NCBI GenBank assembly: GCA_947473805.1
Contig: CANJGB010000031.1
Span: forward strand, 1-37,180
Source: Alphaproteobacteria bacterium
GTDB taxonomy: Bacteria; Pseudomonadota; Alphaproteobacteria; Ferrovibrionales; Ferrovibrionaceae
Reading direction: 5' to 3'
Length of the DNA stretch: 37,180 bases
Each line of letters starts with the position of its first letter. Position 1 is the first letter of the stretch. Position numbers and translations under genes: made by a program. A model generated the notes under the pieces. It saw nothing but the letters and a program-made list of their open reading frames with translations. It was not told the DNA's origin and searched no databases. Shown one piece after another: positions 9,113 to 35,697 of this stretch.

Positions 9113-10237
9113 CTATTCGGCCGCCGCCGGGGTGGCGGCTTTTGCGGCCTCGATCTCGCGCGCCTTGGCCTCGGCCAGCTGCACCAGATGCTCGACCACG
9201 TCCTGATCCTTCAGCCGGTGCGCCTGCACGCCGCCGAGATAGACCTGGTGGTTGTTGTTGCCGCCGCCGGTGAAGCCGATATCGGTCTCGCGCGCCTCGC
9301 CCGGCCCGTTCACCACGCAGCCAATCACTGACAGTGTCATCGGCACGGTGATGTGGGCGAGGCGCTTCTCCAGCGCCTCGACGGTGCGGATAACGTCGTA
9401 CTGCTGCCGTGCACAGGACGGGCAGGAAATGATGTTAACGCCGCGGTGCCTAAGGTTCAGCGACTTCAGCATGTCGAAACCGACACGCACCTCTTCCTCG
9501 GGCTCGGCCGACAGCGACACGCGGATGGTATCGCCGATGCCTGACCAGAGCAGCATGCCCATGCCGATGGAAGACTTCACCGTACCGGTGCGCATGCCGC
9601 CGGCCTCGGTGATGCCGACGTGCAGCGGATAGTCGCACGCCTCGGCCAAGCCCTGGTAGGCGGCTACGGCGAGGAACACGTCCGACGCCTTCACGCTGAT
9701 CTTGAATTCACGGAAGTCATGATCCTCGAGAATGCGCGCGTGGTGCAGCGCGCTCTCGACCATCGCCTCGGGACATGGCTCGCCGTACTTCTCCAGAAGG
9801 TCCTTCTCCAGCGAGCCGGCATTGACACCGATGCGCATCGAACAGCCATGGTCCTTCGCCGCCTTCACCACCTCGCGGACCCGGTCGTCCGAGCCGATAT
9901 TGCCGGGATTGATGCGCAGGCAAGCAGCGCCGGCCCTGGCCGCCTCGATGGCGCGTTTGTAGTGGAAATGGATGTCGGCCACGATCGGCACCGAAGACGC
10001 GCGCACGATCTCGCTCAGGGCCGCAGTCGAAGCCTCGTCAGGGCATGATACGCGCACGATATCGGCCCCCGCCTCAATACAGCGCTGCACCTGGGCGATG
10101 GTGGCCGGCACGTCGGACGTGCGCGTGTTGGTCATGGTCTGCACGGTGATTGGCGAATCACCACCGACCGGCACATTGCCGACCATAATCTTGCGGCTCT
10201 TGCGGCGCGCGATGTCGCGATAGGGACGTACGCTCAT
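9113..10237 (-). CDS. ispG: 4-hydroxy-3-methylbut-2-enyl diphosphate synthase (IspG/GcpE)
   Basis: Iron-sulfur enzyme of the MEP isoprenoid pathway that reduces methylerythritol cyclodiphosphate to HMBPP. The 374-residue protein has the TIM-barrel N-terminal part (VQTMTNTRT near 32-40) and the 4Fe-4S ligands C272, C275 and C307 with E314 (CPSC and CVVNGPGE). Its C-terminus is an Ala/Glu-rich tail. The ATG at 10237 is preceded by GAGGA at good spacing; the open frame extends upstream into the RodZ-like gene but with atypical sequence. It lies 52 bases downstream of the RodZ-like gene on the same strand. Confidence 0.96.
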
Positions 10238-10289
10238 CGGTTCCTCATCCGGCGGTCTCCACGCAACGCGGATGCCGCCCGGGTCCTGT

Positions 10290-11351
10290 CTAGTTGGCCG
10301 GGGCGCGGCGTTCAAGCGGCACGGGCGGCGCCAGCAGCACGGCGGGCGCCAGGGAAATGTTGCGCTTGGGCACGCCGGCACCGCCGAGCGGCGGGATGAC
10401 CTTGCCATCCACCACGACGTCCAGACCCCCAAGATTGCCGGCATCCATCACCAAATCGGGCTGGTTCGGCGCCCGGTAGGTCTCACCCGGCTCCAGAATG
10501 CGCTGGAACAGGGTCTGGCCCTGGGGACCGGCGACACGAATCCAGGCCCGCTGGGTCGCGTTGATGACGACCCGCACGTCCGCCTGCTCGCTGCCATAAA
10601 TGCCGGCAGGCTTCGATGGCGGCGGGACCACCTCGGCCGCCTGAGGCAGCGGTGGCGGTGCAGGCGGGGCGACGGCCGGGGCTGGCGGGACAACCGGTGA
10701 AGGCAAAAACGACGGCGGCGTGGGCGAAGAAACGGCCGCCTCCCCCGGAACAGAAGGGACACCCGCCACCGGCGGCGCCGGCAGTACGGGGACAATCGGC
10801 ACGACGGGCGTGGCGGGCGGTGGCGGCGCGGCGCTGAGGATGCGCTCGGGCACGGGCGGGACCGGCTCGGTTACCGCAAACAGCTGCTCCTGCCGGCTGG
10901 CCCAGTAGACGTAGATGCCGATCGCCACAACCAGGGCCGCAAAAACCAGCCAGAACCGCGGCAGGCGTTGCTCAGCGGCTGGGACCGGAAAGCTGAGGGG
11001 TTCATCCGCCGACGGGCCTCCCGTCTCCTCCTTGAAGGCCTCGACAGCGCGACTGCCGTCCAGGCGAAGGAACTCGGCATAGCTGCGGACGAAGCCGAGC
11101 GCATAGGAAGTGCCCGGCAAGGCGGCAAAGTCGCCGCGCTCAATGGCCCGCAGATAGTCACGGCGGATGCGCAGCCGCGTGGCGACGTCTTCGATCCGCA
11201 GGCCGTCCTGGCGGCGGGCCGTGCGGAGGACTGCACCAACACCCGTATAGTCCGGATTTTCGGGCGGCTCTTCGTCCGGGCCACGCAGCACGAGCCGCGG
11301 GCCGCCAACGGGCCGCAGCCGACTGCGTCGATTGAGCGGATCCTGAACCAT
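10290..11351 (-). CDS. RodZ-like helix-turn-helix membrane protein (DUF4115)
   Basis: Predicted bitopic inner-membrane protein related to RodZ, which links MreB filaments to the cell-wall elongation machinery. The 353-residue protein has a cytoplasmic HTH domain (about 36-105, including [17 protein letters not shown]), one transmembrane helix (about 132-150), a long Pro/Ala-rich periplasmic linker (about 163-250) and a C-terminal DUF4115 beta domain (about 255-325). The order HTH, membrane helix, proline linker, DUF4115 is diagnostic. It lies between ptsP and ispG. The start has only a weak ribosome-binding site, so the first few residues are uncertain. Confidence 0.88.
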
Positions 11352-18396: not shown

Positions 18397-19270
18397 TCCC
18401 ATGCTGGTGTTCGACCGGATGCAGGTGCGCCGCCAGCGCGCCCGCGCCGTGGCGACCCTGGGCCAGGCCGACTTCCTGTTCCGCGAGGTGGGCGAGCGGC
18501 TGGCCGACCGCCTGCTGGACATCCGCCGCACCTTTCCCGTCGCGCTTGAACTTGGCGCGCGCGCCGGCGCGCTGCATGAGGGCCAGGCCGGTATCGAGTA
18601 TCTCGTCCGCGCCGACCATGTGCCGGGCCACGGCGTGCAGGTCGTCGCCGACGAAGAAATACTGCCGTTTGGGGAAGGCTCGCTCGACCTCGTGTTCGCG
18701 CCGGCCGGGCTGCACACGGTGAACGACCTGCCCGGCGCGCTGGCGCAGATCGCCCGTGCCCTGAAGCCCGATGGCCTGTTTCTCGCAGCGATGTTCGGCG
18801 GTGAGACACTAAGCGAGCTGCGCGACTGCCTGCTGGCGGCGGAACTGGAAATCGAGGGCGGGGGCAGCCCGCGCGTGTCGCCGTTCGCGGGCCTGCAGGA
18901 TGCAGCCGGACTGTTGCAGCGGGCGGGCTTCGCACTGCCGGTCGCGGACAGCGAGACAATTACCGTGACCTACGCCGACCCGTTCGCACTGATGCGCGAC
19001 CTGCGCCACATGGGCGAGGCTAACGCAGTGCACCTGCGCCGCCGGACGCCGACGCGACGCGCTACCCTGTTCCGCGCGGCCGAGCTATATCTGGAGCGCT
19101 ATGCCGGGCCGGACGGCCGCGTCCCGGCGACATTCCAGGTGATGACCCTGACCGGCTGGCGCCCGCATATCAGCCAGCAGAAGGCGCTGCGCCCCGGCAG
19201 CGCGAAAAGCCGCCTGGCCGATGCGCTGGGCGTGCCGGAGATTCCGGCCGGCGAGAAAGCCGGACGCTAG
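18383..19270 (+). CDS. Class I SAM-dependent methyltransferase, NDUFAF5/BioC-like
   Basis: A 295-residue protein of the family that includes mitochondrial NDUFAF5 (an arginine hydroxylase in complex I assembly) and BioC-like methyltransferases. Visible features are the N-terminal MLVFDRMQVRRQRARA, the SAM-site strand VALELGARAGALHEGQ (about 53-68), and the C-terminal MTLTGWRPHISQQKALRPGS typical of this alphaproteobacterial group. The SAM loop is poorer in glycine than usual methyltransferases. Start ATG at 18383; ATG at 18401 is an alternative. It is divergent from comF with a 21-base gap and its TAG stop overlaps the mutT stop on the other strand. Function is by family only. Confidence 0.85.
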   Translation: MAHDDPMLVFDRMQVRRQRARAVATLGQADFLFREVGERLADRLLDIRRTFPVALELGARAGALHEGQAGIEYLVRADHVPGHGVQVVADEEILPFGEGSLDLVFAPAGLHTVNDLPGALAQIARALKPDGLFLAAMFGGETLSELRDCLLAAELEIEGGGSPRVSPFAGLQDAAGLLQRAGFALPVADSETITVTYADPFALMRDLRHMGEANAVHLRRRTPTRRATLFRAAELYLERYAGPDGRVPATFQVMTLTGWRPHISQQKALRPGSAKSRLADALGVPEIPAGEKAGR

Positions 19271-19677
19271 AGTAAATCGCGCAGCATGGCGACCAGCGGC
19301 ACATCGGCCGGCGGCATCGGCATCTCGGCCATGTCGCGCGGGCGCTTCCACGTCAGCGCCTGGCCAAGCAGGGGCCGCGGCGTGCCAGACCAGCGGCGGC
19401 ACACATAAAGCGGCATCAGCAGGTGGAAGGTTTCGTAGGTATGGCTGGCGAAGGTGAAGGGCGCGAGGCAGGCGGCGGTGACGTCGATGCCGATCTCCTC
19501 CTTCAGCTCGCGGATCAGGGCGACTTCCGGCGTCTCGCCAGGCTCGACCTTGCCGCCGGGAAATTCCCACAAACCGGCCAGGCTCTTGCCCGGGGGCCGC
19601 TGCGCCAGCAGCACGCGACCGTCCGGATCGACCAGGGCAACGGCGACGACGAGAATCACGGGATGAGCCATGCGCAT
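19267..19677 (-). CDS. mutT: MutT-type Nudix hydrolase (8-oxo-dGTP diphosphatase)
   Basis: Probable (deoxy)nucleoside triphosphate pyrophosphohydrolase that removes oxidised dGTP from the pool. The 136-residue protein has a complete Nudix box at 42-64 (G42, E48, R56, E57, E60, E61, G63) and the MutT-like WEFPGGKVEPGE segment. The initiation codon may be the ATG at 19677 or the one at 19671 (MAHPVILVV). Its TAG stop shares the palindrome CTAG with the stop of the convergent methyltransferase gene. It lies 11 bases after argJ on the same strand. Substrate is inferred from similarity to MutT. Confidence 0.88.
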   Translation of the reverse strand: MRMAHPVILVVAVALVDPDGRVLLAQRPPGKSLAGLWEFPGGKVEPGETPEVALIRELKEEIGIDVTAACLAPFTFASHTYETFHLLMPLYVCRRWSGTPRPLLGQALTWKRPRDMAEMPMPPADVPLVAMLRDLL

Positions 19678-28378: not shown

Positions 28379-29305
28379 TCAATCCGCCCCGTCCGGGCGC
28401 GCCAGGGGGTGGTGCGACTGGACCAAGGCCTTCAGGCGTTCGGCCAGAACATGGGTGTAAATCTGAGTCGTCGAGATGTCGGCGTGGCCCAGCAATTGCT
28501 GTACGGCGCGCAGGTCCGCCCCATGTGCCAACAGGTGGCTGGCAAAGGCGTGGCGCAGCACGTGCGGCGACAATTTTCCCGGGTCGAGATTGGCCTTCAG
28601 CGCCGCTTCCTTGAGCCACAGGGCAAAGGCCTGCCGCGTGATGTGGCCGCTGTCGCCGCGTGAAGGAAACAGCCAGCGCGATGGTTCGTCATCTTTCAGG
28701 AACTGCGGGCGCACATCCAGATAGGCATCGAGTGCAGTCCGGGCCGCATCGCCGATGGGCACCAGCCGCTCCTTGCTGCCCTTACCGCGCACGCGCAGGA
28801 AACTATCCTGTTCGCGCGGCAGCGGCCATGGCAGGCCTACCAGTTCCGAGACGCGCAGGCCGGTCGCATAGAGCAGTTCCAGCAGGCAAGTCAGTCTCTT
28901 GCCCTCGGGCGACTCATCGGCATGCACGAGATCGAGCAGCGAGCCTACGTCGGGCTCGCTCATCACCTTGGGCAGCGCGCGCGCGCGCCGCGGTGCGTCG
29001 AGTATCGCCGAGGGGTCATCGGCGCGTATCCCGTCGCCGAGGAGAAACCGATAGAACTGTCGAAGAGCAGACAGTCGCCGCGCCTGGGTACTGGCGGCCA
29101 GACCGGCGTCGTTGAGCCGGGCCAGGTAGGCGCGCAAGGCCGTACTGTCAGCCTTCGCCGTCTCCAAGCCTTGCTTGGTCAGAAAGGCCGCAAGATCGTC
29201 GAGGTCGCGACGATAGGCGTCGATGGTGTTGCGGCTGGCGCCGCGCTCGGCCGCCAGCATCTCCAGGAACGTCTCGACGTGGGCCGCACCCGACACGCGG
29301 GTCAC
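28379..29305 (-). CDS. xerD: Site-specific tyrosine recombinase XerD
   Basis: Tyrosine recombinase that with XerC resolves chromosome dimers at dif. The 308-residue protein has the SAM-like N-terminal core-binding domain (about 1-95) and a catalytic domain with the full set R151, K175, H248, R251, H274 and nucleophile Y283. The C-terminal tail is typical of Xer proteins. The start is GTG at 29305, overlapping the upstream gene stop as GTGA. It is called XerD rather than XerC from its neighbourhood next to aroK/aroB. It is a housekeeping recombinase; no mobile element is seen around it. Confidence 0.92.
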   Translation of the reverse strand: MTRVSGAAHVETFLEMLAAERGASRNTIDAYRRDLDDLAAFLTKQGLETAKADSTALRAYLARLNDAGLAASTQARRLSALRQFYRFLLGDGIRADDPSAILDAPRRARALPKVMSEPDVGSLLDLVHADESPEGKRLTCLLELLYATGLRVSELVGLPWPLPREQDSFLRVRGKGSKERLVPIGDAARTALDAYLDVRPQFLKDDEPSRWLFPSRGDSGHITRQAFALWLKEAALKANLDPGKLSPHVLRHAFASHLLAHGADLRAVQQLLGHADISTTQIYTHVLAERLKALVQSHHPLARPDGAD

Positions 29306-31086
29306 ACGCCCCGGGCCAGCGCCGCCTCCAGCGCCAGCGCGCGCGCATCACTGTCGAGGCCGACCTTGCGCAAGCTGGCCAGCACCGTGCCAAGCGTCGC
29401 CGCATCAAGGCCCGCCGGACCACCACGACCGAGAACGAGAAGCGCATACAGGACCGTCTCGCCGCGCCGGGCGCCGTCGGCCGCGCGCTGCATTCCGCGC
29501 ACCGCCACGGGTGAAGCCGCACGCTCGCTGGCTGCTGCAGCGTTCGGCGGAACATCCGCCCAAGCTGAATCCGGGACCGCGTAACCCAGCGCCTCGAACG
29601 CAAACAGCAGCGTCGCGGAACGTCGCTGTCGCAGCAGTGCGGCAATGTCTTTCTGGCTCTCCACCCAGGCCTGCCAGCGTGCCGGGTCGAAACCATTGGA
29701 ACCACCGGCATCGGCCAGAAGCACCAGCGGCCAGATCGAGGCGACCGTGGCAGCGGCGTCCTTGTCCACCTCTGCGGGACGCGCGCGGGCCCATGCATAC
29801 CACTGGCGCGCGGCACGCTGGTCCCCGGCGGCGACGAGGGCGCGGTAGATGTCGGCAGCGGCGAAACCCAGTTCCTCGGACACTGGCAATTCGCGCGTCA
29901 TCGGCAGTGTCGCGTCAGCCATGGCCGGGAGCTGCCCGTTCCGCGCCGCCAACACCCAGGCGCGCCGCAACGCTTCAGCCCGGACGATCGGCACCGATTG
30001 CGCCGCCGCCGCCTGAAAGGCCAAGGCGCGGGCCCGCGCCGGATTGGCGTCCAGCTTGGCCAGGGAGGCCGTCGGGTCGCGCTTTTCCTCGGGCGTGAAC
30101 GTTATGGCCGCATAGGCCTTGGCCAGCGCATCACCCGCCAGAGCACCGGCAGTTTCCGCGCCCTCGGCCGCAATCACGCGCTGGTCGGCATCGCCGCCAG
30201 CCAAATCGAGCAAAGCCGCCTGGACGGCAGGCGGTGCATCGGCAAAGGCATCAGCCGGCGTCGGCCGTTTTGTCGCGCGCAACATGGCGAGGTTGAGCGG
30301 TCCGGGCTGGGTCAGGGACTCGAGCTTGCCGGCACGCGGATTGACAAGAATGTCGGCCAGGGTGAGGAAACCCGTGTCGTCGATGCCCTGTTCACGCAGC
30401 AACGTCAGCGAGAGCGCGGCGGCGTTGAGATCATTGTCCAGCACCCGGCAGAGAAAGCCGGACTTGAGCCAATAGGGATCAAGGTCTTCACGCACCCAGC
30501 GCTGCGCCGTGGTGCAGGCCGAGGCATTTTCGTTGCGGAGCCAGGCGGCATCAGCCGCCGCCCGCGCCAGGCGCGGATCGTTCAGAGTGGCGGGCGCAAG
30601 CCGGGACAGCGCAAGCCCCGCCTCGACCTGACCGAGGGCGACCAGGCGCTCGACCCGAAGGCCGAGCAGGCTTTTCGCAATGGGCTGGCCCTCGGGCACC
30701 GTCGCCGCGGTACGCAGTAGGCGCAACTGCATCGCCCGGGTGGCAGCCGAGCCACGGGTCGGCTCGATCAGCAACAAGCCGCGCTCCACCTGCGCGCGGT
30801 CGGAGCCACGCCACATATCGGGACCATAGCTGCCGGCAGCCTCGTCGGTCAGCGTACCGACCGACGACACGTCGGGCGCCTGGAGGGGTACGACCTGGAC
30901 AGGCGCGGATTCCACCGCCGGGCGCTCGCCCTCCGGCACCGCCTGGGCCGGCGTCTCGCCGGACGGCTGGACGATGAGGGGGACCTGGGGACGCTGGGCC
31001 GGGATCAGCTGGATCGGCTGCGCCGAAGCCGGCAATACCAGCAGCGCCAGCGCCGCTGCGGCGGCGCTACTTACCCAGCCGGTCAT
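29302..31086 (-). CDS. Large secreted helical protein of unknown function
   Basis: I do not recognise a named family. The 594-residue product has a signal peptide (MTGWVSSAAAAALALLVLPASA, cleaved near residue 22), a Pro/Gln/Val-rich linker (about 23-90), then about 500 residues of Ala/Leu-rich helices without transmembrane segments, reminiscent of TPR or HEAT-like alpha-solenoids. It should be periplasmic. The ATG at 31086 lies inside the upstream 45-residue gene (20-base overlap), and its stop overlaps xerD by four bases, so all three are probably co-translated. Its presence between xerD and aroK suggests a conserved but uncharacterised cell-envelope role; that is inference. Confidence 0.75.
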   Translation of the reverse strand: MTGWVSSAAAAALALLVLPASAQPIQLIPAQRPQVPLIVQPSGETPAQAVPEGERPAVESAPVQVVPLQAPDVSSVGTLTDEAAGSYGPDMWRGSDRAQVERGLLLIEPTRGSAATRAMQLRLLRTAATVPEGQPIAKSLLGLRVERLVALGQVEAGLALSRLAPATLNDPRLARAAADAAWLRNENASACTTAQRWVREDLDPYWLKSGFLCRVLDNDLNAAALSLTLLREQGIDDTGFLTLADILVNPRAGKLESLTQPGPLNLAMLRATKRPTPADAFADAPPAVQAALLDLAGGDADQRVIAAEGAETAGALAGDALAKAYAAITFTPEEKRDPTASLAKLDANPARARALAFQAAAAQSVPIVRAEALRRAWVLAARNGQLPAMADATLPMTRELPVSEELGFAAADIYRALVAAGDQRAARQWYAWARARPAEVDKDAAATVASIWPLVLLADAGGSNGFDPARWQAWVESQKDIAALLRQRRSATLLFAFEALGYAVPDSAWADVPPNAAAASERAASPVAVRGMQRAADGARRGETVLYALLVLGRGGPAGLDAATLGTVLASLRKVGLDSDARALALEAALARGV

Positions 31087-33041: not shown

Positions 33042-34340
33042 ATGGATCACGCACTTCTCCTCTCCATCGGGGCGGTCATCCTCCTCCTGCTGCTGTCGGC
33101 ATTTTTCTCCGCCTCGGAGACCGGCCTGACCGCCGCTAGCCGCGCCCGGATGCATCACCTCGCGCGCAACGGCAACAAGCGCGCCAAGGCGGTCGAATGG
33201 CTGCTGGACCGGCGCGAAGACCTCATCGGCGCGCTGCTGCTGGGGAACAATGTCGCCAACATCGCCGCTTCATCGCTGGCAACCGGCGTGCTGATCGGCA
33301 TGTTTGGCGAGCATGGCGTTGCCTATGCCACCGCGATCATGACCGTTCTGGTGCTGGTGTTCGCGGAAGTCATGCCCAAGACCTACGCCATCAACCGGCC
33401 CGACCGCGTCGCCCTGTTCGTCGGCCCGCTGGTACGGGTGCTGGTCGCGATCCTGCTGCCCGTCGTTCGCACGGTCCAGGCCATCGTCCGCCAGACATTC
33501 CGCCTGTTCGGCGCGCGTGTCCACGACACCACCGACGACGTGTCACCAACCGAGGAACTGCGCTCGTCGATTGATCTTCACGTGCGCGAGGGCGGCATGG
33601 TCAAGCACGAGCGCGACATGCTGGGCTCGATCCTGGACCTGGCCGAATACGCGGTCGGCGACATCATGATCCACCGCCAGGAGATGCAGACGATCGACAT
33701 CGGCGAACCGCCGGCGCAGATCGTCGATCAGGTGCTGGCCAGCGGCCATACACGGCTACCAGTCTGGCGCGACAATCCGGACAATATCGTCGGCGTGCTG
33801 CACGCCCGCGATTTGTTGCGCGAACTGTCGCGGCGCGGCGGGGCGACCGAAGCCATCGACATTTCGAAGGTGGTGACCGATCCGTGGTTCGTACCCGAAA
33901 CCACGACGCTGCGCGCGCAGTTGTCCGCCTTCCGCCAGAAGCGGCAGCACTTCGCGCTGGTTGTCGACGAGTACGGCACGCTGCAGGGCCTCGTGACCCT
34001 GGAAGACATTCTCGAGGAGATCGTCGGCGATATCCGCGACGAGCACGACAAGACCGCCACCGGCGTGCGGCCGCAGCCGGACGGTTCGTGGCTGGTCGAC
34101 GGCACGGTCACCATCCGCGACCTCAACCGTCTGCTTGACTGGCACCTGTCGGACGAGGACTTTTCCACCGTCGCCGGCCTCGTCATCCACGAGTCACGCA
34201 CCATCCCCGAGCCGGGGCAGAGCTTCGTCTTCTTTGACCGCAAGTTCGAGGTGATGAAGCGCCAGCGCAACCGGCTGACCTCGTTGCGCATCTCGCTGCT
34301 CAAGCCGTCGGAGAACGACGACCCCGACAGCACGGGCTAG
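33042..34340 (+). CDS. CNNM/CorC-type membrane protein (DUF21, CBS pair, CorC_HlyC)
   Basis: Predicted inner-membrane magnesium/cobalt transporter or efflux regulator of the HlyC/CorC family. The 432-residue protein has a DUF21/CNNM membrane domain with about four helices (5-25, 62-84, 95-115, 125-145), including the SASETGLTAASRARMH signature, then a CBS pair (about 205-330) that in relatives binds ATP-Mg, and a C-terminal transporter-associated domain (about 345-425). It follows aroB by three bases. Its TAG stop sits in a CTAG palindrome that would also end the neighbouring BLUF gene if that gene is frameshifted. Mg export is inferred from CNNM homologues. Confidence 0.9.
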   Translation: MDHALLLSIGAVILLLLLSAFFSASETGLTAASRARMHHLARNGNKRAKAVEWLLDRREDLIGALLLGNNVANIAASSLATGVLIGMFGEHGVAYATAIMTVLVLVFAEVMPKTYAINRPDRVALFVGPLVRVLVAILLPVVRTVQAIVRQTFRLFGARVHDTTDDVSPTEELRSSIDLHVREGGMVKHERDMLGSILDLAEYAVGDIMIHRQEMQTIDIGEPPAQIVDQVLASGHTRLPVWRDNPDNIVGVLHARDLLRELSRRGGATEAIDISKVVTDPWFVPETTTLRAQLSAFRQKRQHFALVVDEYGTLQGLVTLEDILEEIVGDIRDEHDKTATGVRPQPDGSWLVDGTVTIRDLNRLLDWHLSDEDFSTVAGLVIHESRTIPEPGQSFVFFDRKFEVMKRQRNRLTSLRISLLKPSENDDPDSTG

Positions 34341-34386
34341 ACGCGGTTCTCGCCCCGGCCACGCAGGCGATTCATGATGCGCGGAA

Positions 34387-34761
34387 TTACCTGGTCGCCG
34401 CCGACGACTTTGGCAGGCGCTGACCGTCGAGATCAAGCCTGCCCTCGCGCCTATCCTGCATCTGCTCGCACCCCATGTACCACTGGGGGAAGTCGCGGAC
34501 GTCGTTCTCGTACCTGACGATCTCGCGCATCTCCCGGTGGCGCGGATCAGCCTGGATAGAAGCCAGCAAATCGTTGACTGAGTTCGGGGCGCCCTCGAGG
34601 GCCTGGACGTAGCTGCCGTCGCGGTGCAGCAGCAGCCCGGTCACGTCCAACGCGGCGTTCCTCACGCGCGACTTTGCAATCAGGTCGTCAAGGGCGGGCA
34701 CCGAGAGAAAGGGTGAGGCAGTGCTGATATAAAGCACGTGGAGGACTAAATTCGATTGCAT
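34387..34761 (-). CDS. BLUF-domain blue-light photoreceptor (short)
   Basis: Predicted FAD-binding blue-light sensor. All five flavin-site residues are present at the AppA spacing: Y11, N35, Q53, W94 and M96 (AppA Y21, N45, Q63, W104, M106). The segments are VLYISTASPFLS, RNAALDVTGLLL, YVQALEG and FPQWYMG. The 124-residue protein is a bare BLUF domain plus short tail, with no fused EAL, GGDEF or HTH domain, so it should act through a partner. The ATG at 34761 starts the domain; the open frame further upstream is shadow. Downstream, a different frame encodes a protein-like tail to a stop at 34337, suggesting a one-base frameshift near 34410. It is divergent from an AEC carrier with a 57-base gap. 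Confidence 0.88.
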   Translation of the reverse strand: MQSNLVLHVLYISTASPFLSVPALDDLIAKSRVRNAALDVTGLLLHRDGSYVQALEGAPNSVNDLLASIQADPRHREMREIVRYENDVRDFPQWYMGCEQMQDRREGRLDLDGQRLPKSSAATR

Positions 34762-34818: not shown

Positions 34819-35697
34819 ATGACTAGTGAGCTGTTCGCGATTGTTGCGCCGGTCTTTCTGCTGGCCGCCCTGGGCTATGTCTGGGTGCGGATGAAGCAGC
34901 CGTTCGACGCGGTGTTCGCCAGCGCGCTGGTCATCAACCTGGGCACACCATTCCTGACCTTTTCGTCGCTGACGCGGCTGCACCTGAAGCCGCTCGAATT
35001 CCTCCAGATCGCCGGCAGCGCCGGTGCCGTTCTGGCCACGGTTGGCTTGATGTCCGTCGCCGTGCTGAAGCTGATGAAGCTGCCGCTGCCGGACTATCTT
35101 CCGGCCCTGATGTTCGGCAATTCCGGCAATATGGGCCTGCCGCTGTCGCTGTTCGCGTTTGGCGATCACGGCCTGGCCCTGGCGGTCGGCTATTTCGCCG
35201 CCACGTCGATGGTGAACATGACATTCGGCCAGTGGATCGCCAGTCGCAAGCCGGCGGGGCGATTGTTGCTGCGTTCACCGGTGGTCTATGGCGTGCTGGC
35301 CTCGCTGGCGTTCATGCTGACCGAAACGCCGGTGCCGCGCTGGCTGGACAACACGGCCTACCTGCTGGGCGGCTTCACGATTCCGCCGATGCTGCTGATG
35401 CTGGGCGTGTCGATCGCGCAATTGCGCATCACCATGGCGCACCGCGCGGTGCTGATGGCACTGCTGCGCCTCGGGCTTGGCTTTGCGGCGGGATGGGTAA
35501 CGGCGTGGGCACTGGGGCTCGAAGGCGCGGCCCGCGGCGTTGCCATCCTGCAGGCAACCATGCCGGTCGGCGTCGTCAACTACGTCTTCGCGCGGCAGTA
35601 CGGCAACGACCACGAAACGGTAGCCGGCGCGGTGATCGTCTCAACACTACTGTCGTTCGCGATCCTGCCGCCGCTGCTGCTCTACCTGCTGCCCTGA
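34819..35697 (+). CDS. AEC (auxin efflux carrier) family transporter
   Basis: Predicted inner-membrane carrier of the AEC family, whose bacterial members move dicarboxylates or other organic anions. The 292-residue protein is hydrophobic throughout with about 8-10 helices, including the FGNSGNMGLPLSLFAFGDHG stretch and a second half with FTIPPMLLMLGVSIAQL, matching the inverted-repeat AEC layout. The substrate cannot be told. The ATG at 34819 has AGGCGG nearby. It is divergent from the BLUF gene, and its 3' end overlaps bolA on the other strand by 16 bases. Confidence 0.9.
   Translation: MTSELFAIVAPVFLLAALGYVWVRMKQPFDAVFASALVINLGTPFLTFSSLTRLHLKPLEFLQIAGSAGAVLATVGLMSVAVLKLMKLPLPDYLPALMFGNSGNMGLPLSLFAFGDHGLALAVGYFAATSMVNMTFGQWIASRKPAGRLLLRSPVVYGVLASLAFMLTETPVPRWLDNTAYLLGGFTIPPMLLMLGVSIAQLRITMAHRAVLMALLRLGLGFAAGWVTAWALGLEGAARGVAILQATMPVGVVNYVFARQYGNDHETVAGAVIVSTLLSFAILPPLLLYLLP

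Follow-up and report, generated by a model that had tools for sequence, protein, structure and literature searches.

A probable one-base frame break at the 3′ end of a short BLUF photoreceptor gene

The BLUF gene and its surroundings

The window (the whole stretch of DNA analysed, 37,180 nucleotides) is a single contig of a draft genome of 58 contigs and 3.31 Mb. It carries a short BLUF gene that converges on a CorC-like gene and diverges from a transporter gene, with the following features:

33042–34340, plus strand: gene for a CNNM/CorC-like (YtfL-like) membrane protein of 432 amino acids, convergent and unbroken (NCBIfam NF008604)
34337–34340, no single strand: CTAG in which the tail stop (minus) and that of the convergent CorC-like gene (plus) overlap (sequence)
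34337–34411, minus strand: 3′ tail that lies out of frame, in frame −1: KVVGGDQVIPRIMNRLRGRGENRV followed by TAG at 34339–34337 (codon-usage switch; homologue length and similarity)
34387–34432, minus strand: stretch left open in both frames, to which the frame break is confined (stop positions)
34408–34411, minus strand: A_AAG, the sole in-frame Z_ZZN tetramer of that overlap (sequence; class described in an excerpt of PMC5009743)
34387–34761, minus strand: short BLUF blue-light sensor gene, in-frame reading, 124 amino acids (Pfam PF04940 and translation)
34819–35697, plus strand: gene for an AEC (auxin efflux carrier) family transporter of 292 amino acids, divergent, the next upstream neighbour (NCBIfam TIGR00946)

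Read in frame, the BLUF gene has 124 codons, with a C-terminus of ...RLPKSSAATR and a TAA stop at 34389–34387. The protein belongs to the BLUF family, matching PF04940 along the full profile (E 6.3e-24, residues 7–97, profile positions 2–92 of 92) with 84.3 bits against a curated cut-off of 25. Tyr, Asn and Gln, together with Trp and Met of strand 5, are the conserved flavin-pocket residues of BLUF domains. The window protein retains Y11, N35, Q53, W94 and M96, which are among the invariant columns of an alignment of eight BLUF proteins, and all other invariant columns of that alignment are retained as well. Its best PDB matches were Tll0078 (E 1.2e-13, residues 8–104) and the BLUF-family receptor 2BYC (1.5e-11), which we take to be BlrB; TePixD/Tll0078 (1X0P), BlrB (2BYC) and Slr1694/PixD (2HFN) share with it a core bearing the conserved Tyr, Asn, Gln, Trp and Met. 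Modelled with AlphaFold2 (mean pLDDT 81.7), the 124-residue protein was confidently predicted in the core and unstructured past residue 100, with pLDDT values of 53, 47 and 39 in the last three blocks. The gene has the layout of a stand-alone short photoreceptor of the PixD/BlrB type, and its conserved residues indicate that the FAD-binding, light-sensing core is intact up to the fifth strand. The C-terminal helical part that follows strand 5 in such proteins was not found in the same frame.

The BLUF and CorC-like stops are separated by 46 bases (34341–34386), as an earlier, sequence-only reading had counted. For the latter gene, which had been called CorC, the best model is NF008604 (PRK11573, presumably YtfL), matched over profile positions 12–425 of 428 with 334 bits, under the cut-off of 475; the CorC model covers the C-terminal half only. 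The AEC gene matches TIGR00946 over positions 6–328 of 336 with 79.3 bits, under a cut-off of 246. Elsewhere in the window, the IspG open frame (9113–10444) is extended on its N-terminal side by about 70 residues, overlapping a RodZ-like gene, and the true IspG start probably lies downstream. A second BLUF gene in the same genome (contig C3, 1582–1854; loci L002/L006) lacks both the Trp and the Met of strand 5, that region reading HRLFATGSTELR, and has a normal LLKSF-type C-terminal end. The genome's two dnaE-like genes each occupy one open frame. Searches of the draft, which is listed as 95% complete, gave no match to rpoB or rpoC; part of the chromosome is therefore probably absent from it.

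Coding signal and ancestry of the shifted tail

On the BLUF strand, the −1 frame is open from past a TGA at 34435–34433 up to the TAG at 34339–34337. This TGA and the frame 0 TAA delimit the overlap of the two open frames, which confines the break to 34432–34387. Following frame 0 to CCA (34413–34411) gives 117 codons, and the 24 codons of the tail bring the protein to 141 residues, the approximate length that the sequence-only reading had proposed; its sequence, its two frame readings and its coordinates were as written.

Codon usage follows the tail. Per codon, its 24 codons score 0.558 bits when read in frame −1, whereas the two remaining frames of the strand give −0.549 and −0.573, and sliding windows place the move from frame 0 to frame −1 at 34418–34410. 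A second codon model, built from 180 genes drawn from the window and from other contigs, reproduced the switch (0.63 versus −1.27 and −0.66 near 34410). GC content by codon position points the same way: it is 0.75/0.42/0.79 in the tail and 0.66/0.38/0.82 in the body of the gene, the codon bias of which is rather weak (0.203 bits per codon). One antisense frame across the tail scores 0.519; antisense frames often score well in codon usage, and the gene on that strand stops at 34340. Among in-frame 24-codon stretches from 12 window genes, 88 of 205 score at least as well as the tail, whose coding signal therefore matches that of intact genes. The open −1 frame could instead be due to chance, the 124-residue protein being the natural product, and short open stretches are indeed common out of frame in this GC-rich DNA (105 and 141 in the two shifted frames of the same 12 genes). 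However, only 4 of the 105 and none of the 141 score as well as the tail.

Length also argues against a natural 124-residue product. Homologue searches gave 119 loci, one of which (L095) runs off its contig and was left out; others were duplicates (four pairs, collapsed) or the window itself, leaving 113 distinct homologues for alignment. Measured from the Trp94 column to the end, the window protein has 31 residues, the tail reading 48 and the median homologue 51. The distance is at least 46 residues in 112 of 113 homologues, all in one frame (46–64 in 103, more than 64 in 9), and the window protein is shorter than each of these 112. The one exception, L038 (26 residues), is a damaged gene that carries a stop and an internal deletion. 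Relative to its homologues, the window protein has lost about 17 C-terminal residues.

Similarity of the tail itself to homologue ends lends moderate support at the level of sequence. A few alphaproteobacterial BLUF proteins have C-termini like the tail (PRLLNTF, PRIISTF), with the best matches in L013 and L036, two genomes of one genus that are hardly independent (QLLASEQIVPRLLN, score 38), and in L042 (IKGPDILPRIIS, score 29). We compared the scores with three sets of null peptides (codon-shuffled, base-shuffled and random window). In ungapped alignment anchored at the Trp94 distance ±6 residues, the best score was reached by 1, 6 and 1 of 1,000 nulls, respectively, and in gapped free local alignment by 4, 12 and 5 of 1,000; the gapped top-ten mean was reached by 20, 52 and 69 of 1,000. 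Averaged over 100 homologue tails, 20, 68 and 99 of 1,000 nulls did as well when anchored and 195, 491 and 534 when aligned freely. A profile of the same 100 tails failed to recognise the window tail (−0.8 bits, reached by 86, 719 and 940 of 2,000 nulls), a result that favours chance openness, whereas the Trp94-anchored similarity opposes it. Thirteen of the 113 rows (L038, L010, L084, L021, L025, L057, L061, L074, L081, L016, L030, L019 and L067) had been left out of the 100-tail profile as long, fused to other parts, broken or stop-flagged; excluding L084 was over-cautious, as its stop precedes its likely start. A model of L042 places a helix at 126–136, the part aligned with the tail, but counts for little, being poor overall (mean pLDDT 58.1) and near 40 in that helix.

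The homologues compared are distant. None of the 113 is a close orthologue, and no genome of the same genus was among those searched. A search of 17 other genomes of the same family returned two weaker BLUF matches and no orthologue, and wider draws of genomes with a contig scan added distant homologues only, with at most 46% identity among the matches listed.

Codon usage and length carry the argument for the tail, and with the weaker tail similarity they agree with the earlier claim of a one-base frame break near 34408–34416. The homologue ends were compatible with that claim too: by eye, none of the 113 has an SSAATR-type end, and IMNRL-like ends are present in L013, L036 and L042. Given the codon switch, the length, some tail similarity and the lack of SSAATR-like ends among homologues, we conclude from sequence comparison that the tail once formed the end of the BLUF gene; that the frame was never broken is very improbable.

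Origin of the frame break

A lost frame is most simply read as a mutation or an assembly error, but the ribosome might also restore it. The switch coincides exactly with A_AAG at 34411–34408, the only Z_ZZN tetramer in the 16-codon overlap, so low-level compensatory frameshifting is possible there; in-frame A_AAR occurs 11 times in 4,597 codons of window genes, a chance of about 4% per 16 codons. Slippage by −1 at this site would yield some full-length protein, and hence two forms, the shorter lacking the output helix and the longer carrying it. Excerpts of PMC5009743 describe low-level −1 shifting at NNA_AAG as used by IS1222, and an incidental NNA_AAG shift in a Bacillus cytidine deaminase gene that gives an extended product. 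That gene (A_CGA_AAG) and the window BLUF gene share the tetramer and a −1 reading that would extend the product, but shifting is documented for the former (PMC5009743, in the same excerpts), whereas the latter has the tetramer only.

Other features of the junction speak against slippage. The overlap contains no X_XXY_YYZ heptamer. No stimulator was found at a proper spacing: folding of 34330–34420 is ordinary (z = 0.44, equalled or bettered by 129 of 200 shuffles), the sole obvious hairpin abuts the tetramer with no spacer, and no Shine–Dalgarno-like stretch was seen just upstream of the tetramer (hairpin and upstream stretch judged by eye). The homologues reach their C-termini in one frame, with no conserved arrangement at the junction, and a short run of A is also a likely site for a one-base mutation. 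We therefore regard slippage at A_AAG as unlikely. Its fuller form is about as improbable: a sensor of 124 residues lacking the output helix and one of 141 residues that has it would be made together, and the level of slippage would set the ratio of silent to signalling photoreceptor. Of the three origins that the sequence-only reading had offered (sequencing error, mutation and programmed frameshifting), programmed frameshifting is the least likely.

Assembly or sequencing error is the main rival to mutation. Under an error, the true gene would run in one frame and encode a short BLUF protein of about 141 residues ending ...IMNRLRGRGENRV at the shared CTAG. The tail's lack of decay, its openness as far as a stop interlocked with the convergent gene and the draft state of the 58-contig genome all favour an error, although a recent mutation would look just as fresh. 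Single-base runs in the overlap reach three bases at most, and no other checked window gene was seen to be frame-broken in NCBIfam or Pfam comparisons, which bound the error rate weakly, over about 4,600 codons. Ten window genes match NCBIfam models in one frame along the whole or the greater part of their length (the AroB match starts only at profile position 23), and ArgJ, NUDIX, DUF1178 and both RodZ domains gave one-frame Pfam matches; one of the eight proteins checked in Pfam (29305–31086) had no match and is uninformative. Error keeps a substantial minority of our credence.

Separately, we ran a home-made frame-switch scan over 437,180 bases of the genome to estimate how often frames break in this assembly. 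It was discarded: of the 69 events it called, at least two lay inside genes that are in one frame in Pfam (RodZ-like, 10290–11351; NUDIX, 19267–19677), and it missed the BLUF break.

A mutation in the organism is made credible by broken BLUF genes in other genomes. Three alphaproteobacterial homologues are likewise damaged: in L010 a stop interrupts the BLUF core midway, at a position where homologues mostly have Tyr or His, and L029 and L038 belong to one genus but differ in their damage, with an early stop in L029 and an internal deletion and a late stop in L038. These lesions are stops or a deletion lying mostly in the core, whereas the window lesion is a frame break that touches only the last helix. 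From such sequences, BLUF genes seem to decay repeatedly; a literature search for BLUF together with frameshift and pseudogene found no report among the papers covered. We infer that the change most likely arose in the organism rather than in the assembly. That a genuine, recent one-base mutation near 34411–34408 left a truncated sensor, with signalling probably impaired, is the reading we favour, with modest confidence.

Consequences for the photoreceptor

Under a genuine mutation, the one-base break near 34411–34408 in this stand-alone short BLUF gene would have swapped the last helix, which is part of the output and dimerisation region in short BLUF proteins, for a short unrelated SSAATR tail, leaving a truncated sensor whose signalling would probably be impaired. 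Compared with short stand-alone BLUF photoreceptors, the window gene has its C-terminal helix region out of frame (the Tll0078 chain has 143 amino acids, the window protein 124), and through the frame break the protein most likely loses that helix. According to an excerpt of PMC4630285, C-terminal capping helices are part of BLUF proteins up to about 140 residues long. In PixD, such helices play a part in signalling, and without the C-terminal region the stable dimer and the PixE complex were lost (PMC5899715, in excerpts). By analogy alone, the truncated window protein may retain flavin binding and a light response, but signal poorly.

Automatic gene calling has produced here a 124-residue protein with a false C-terminus, and the annotation should be corrected so that the coding 3′ end of the BLUF gene reaches 34337. 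Either the window BLUF gene, an accessory gene, is genuinely frame-disrupted or the assembly is in error. Only if slippage at A_AAG were true would the locus have greater significance, as one encoding two forms of a single photoreceptor. As a mutation, it would add a further case of a damaged BLUF sensor gene with a still readable core.
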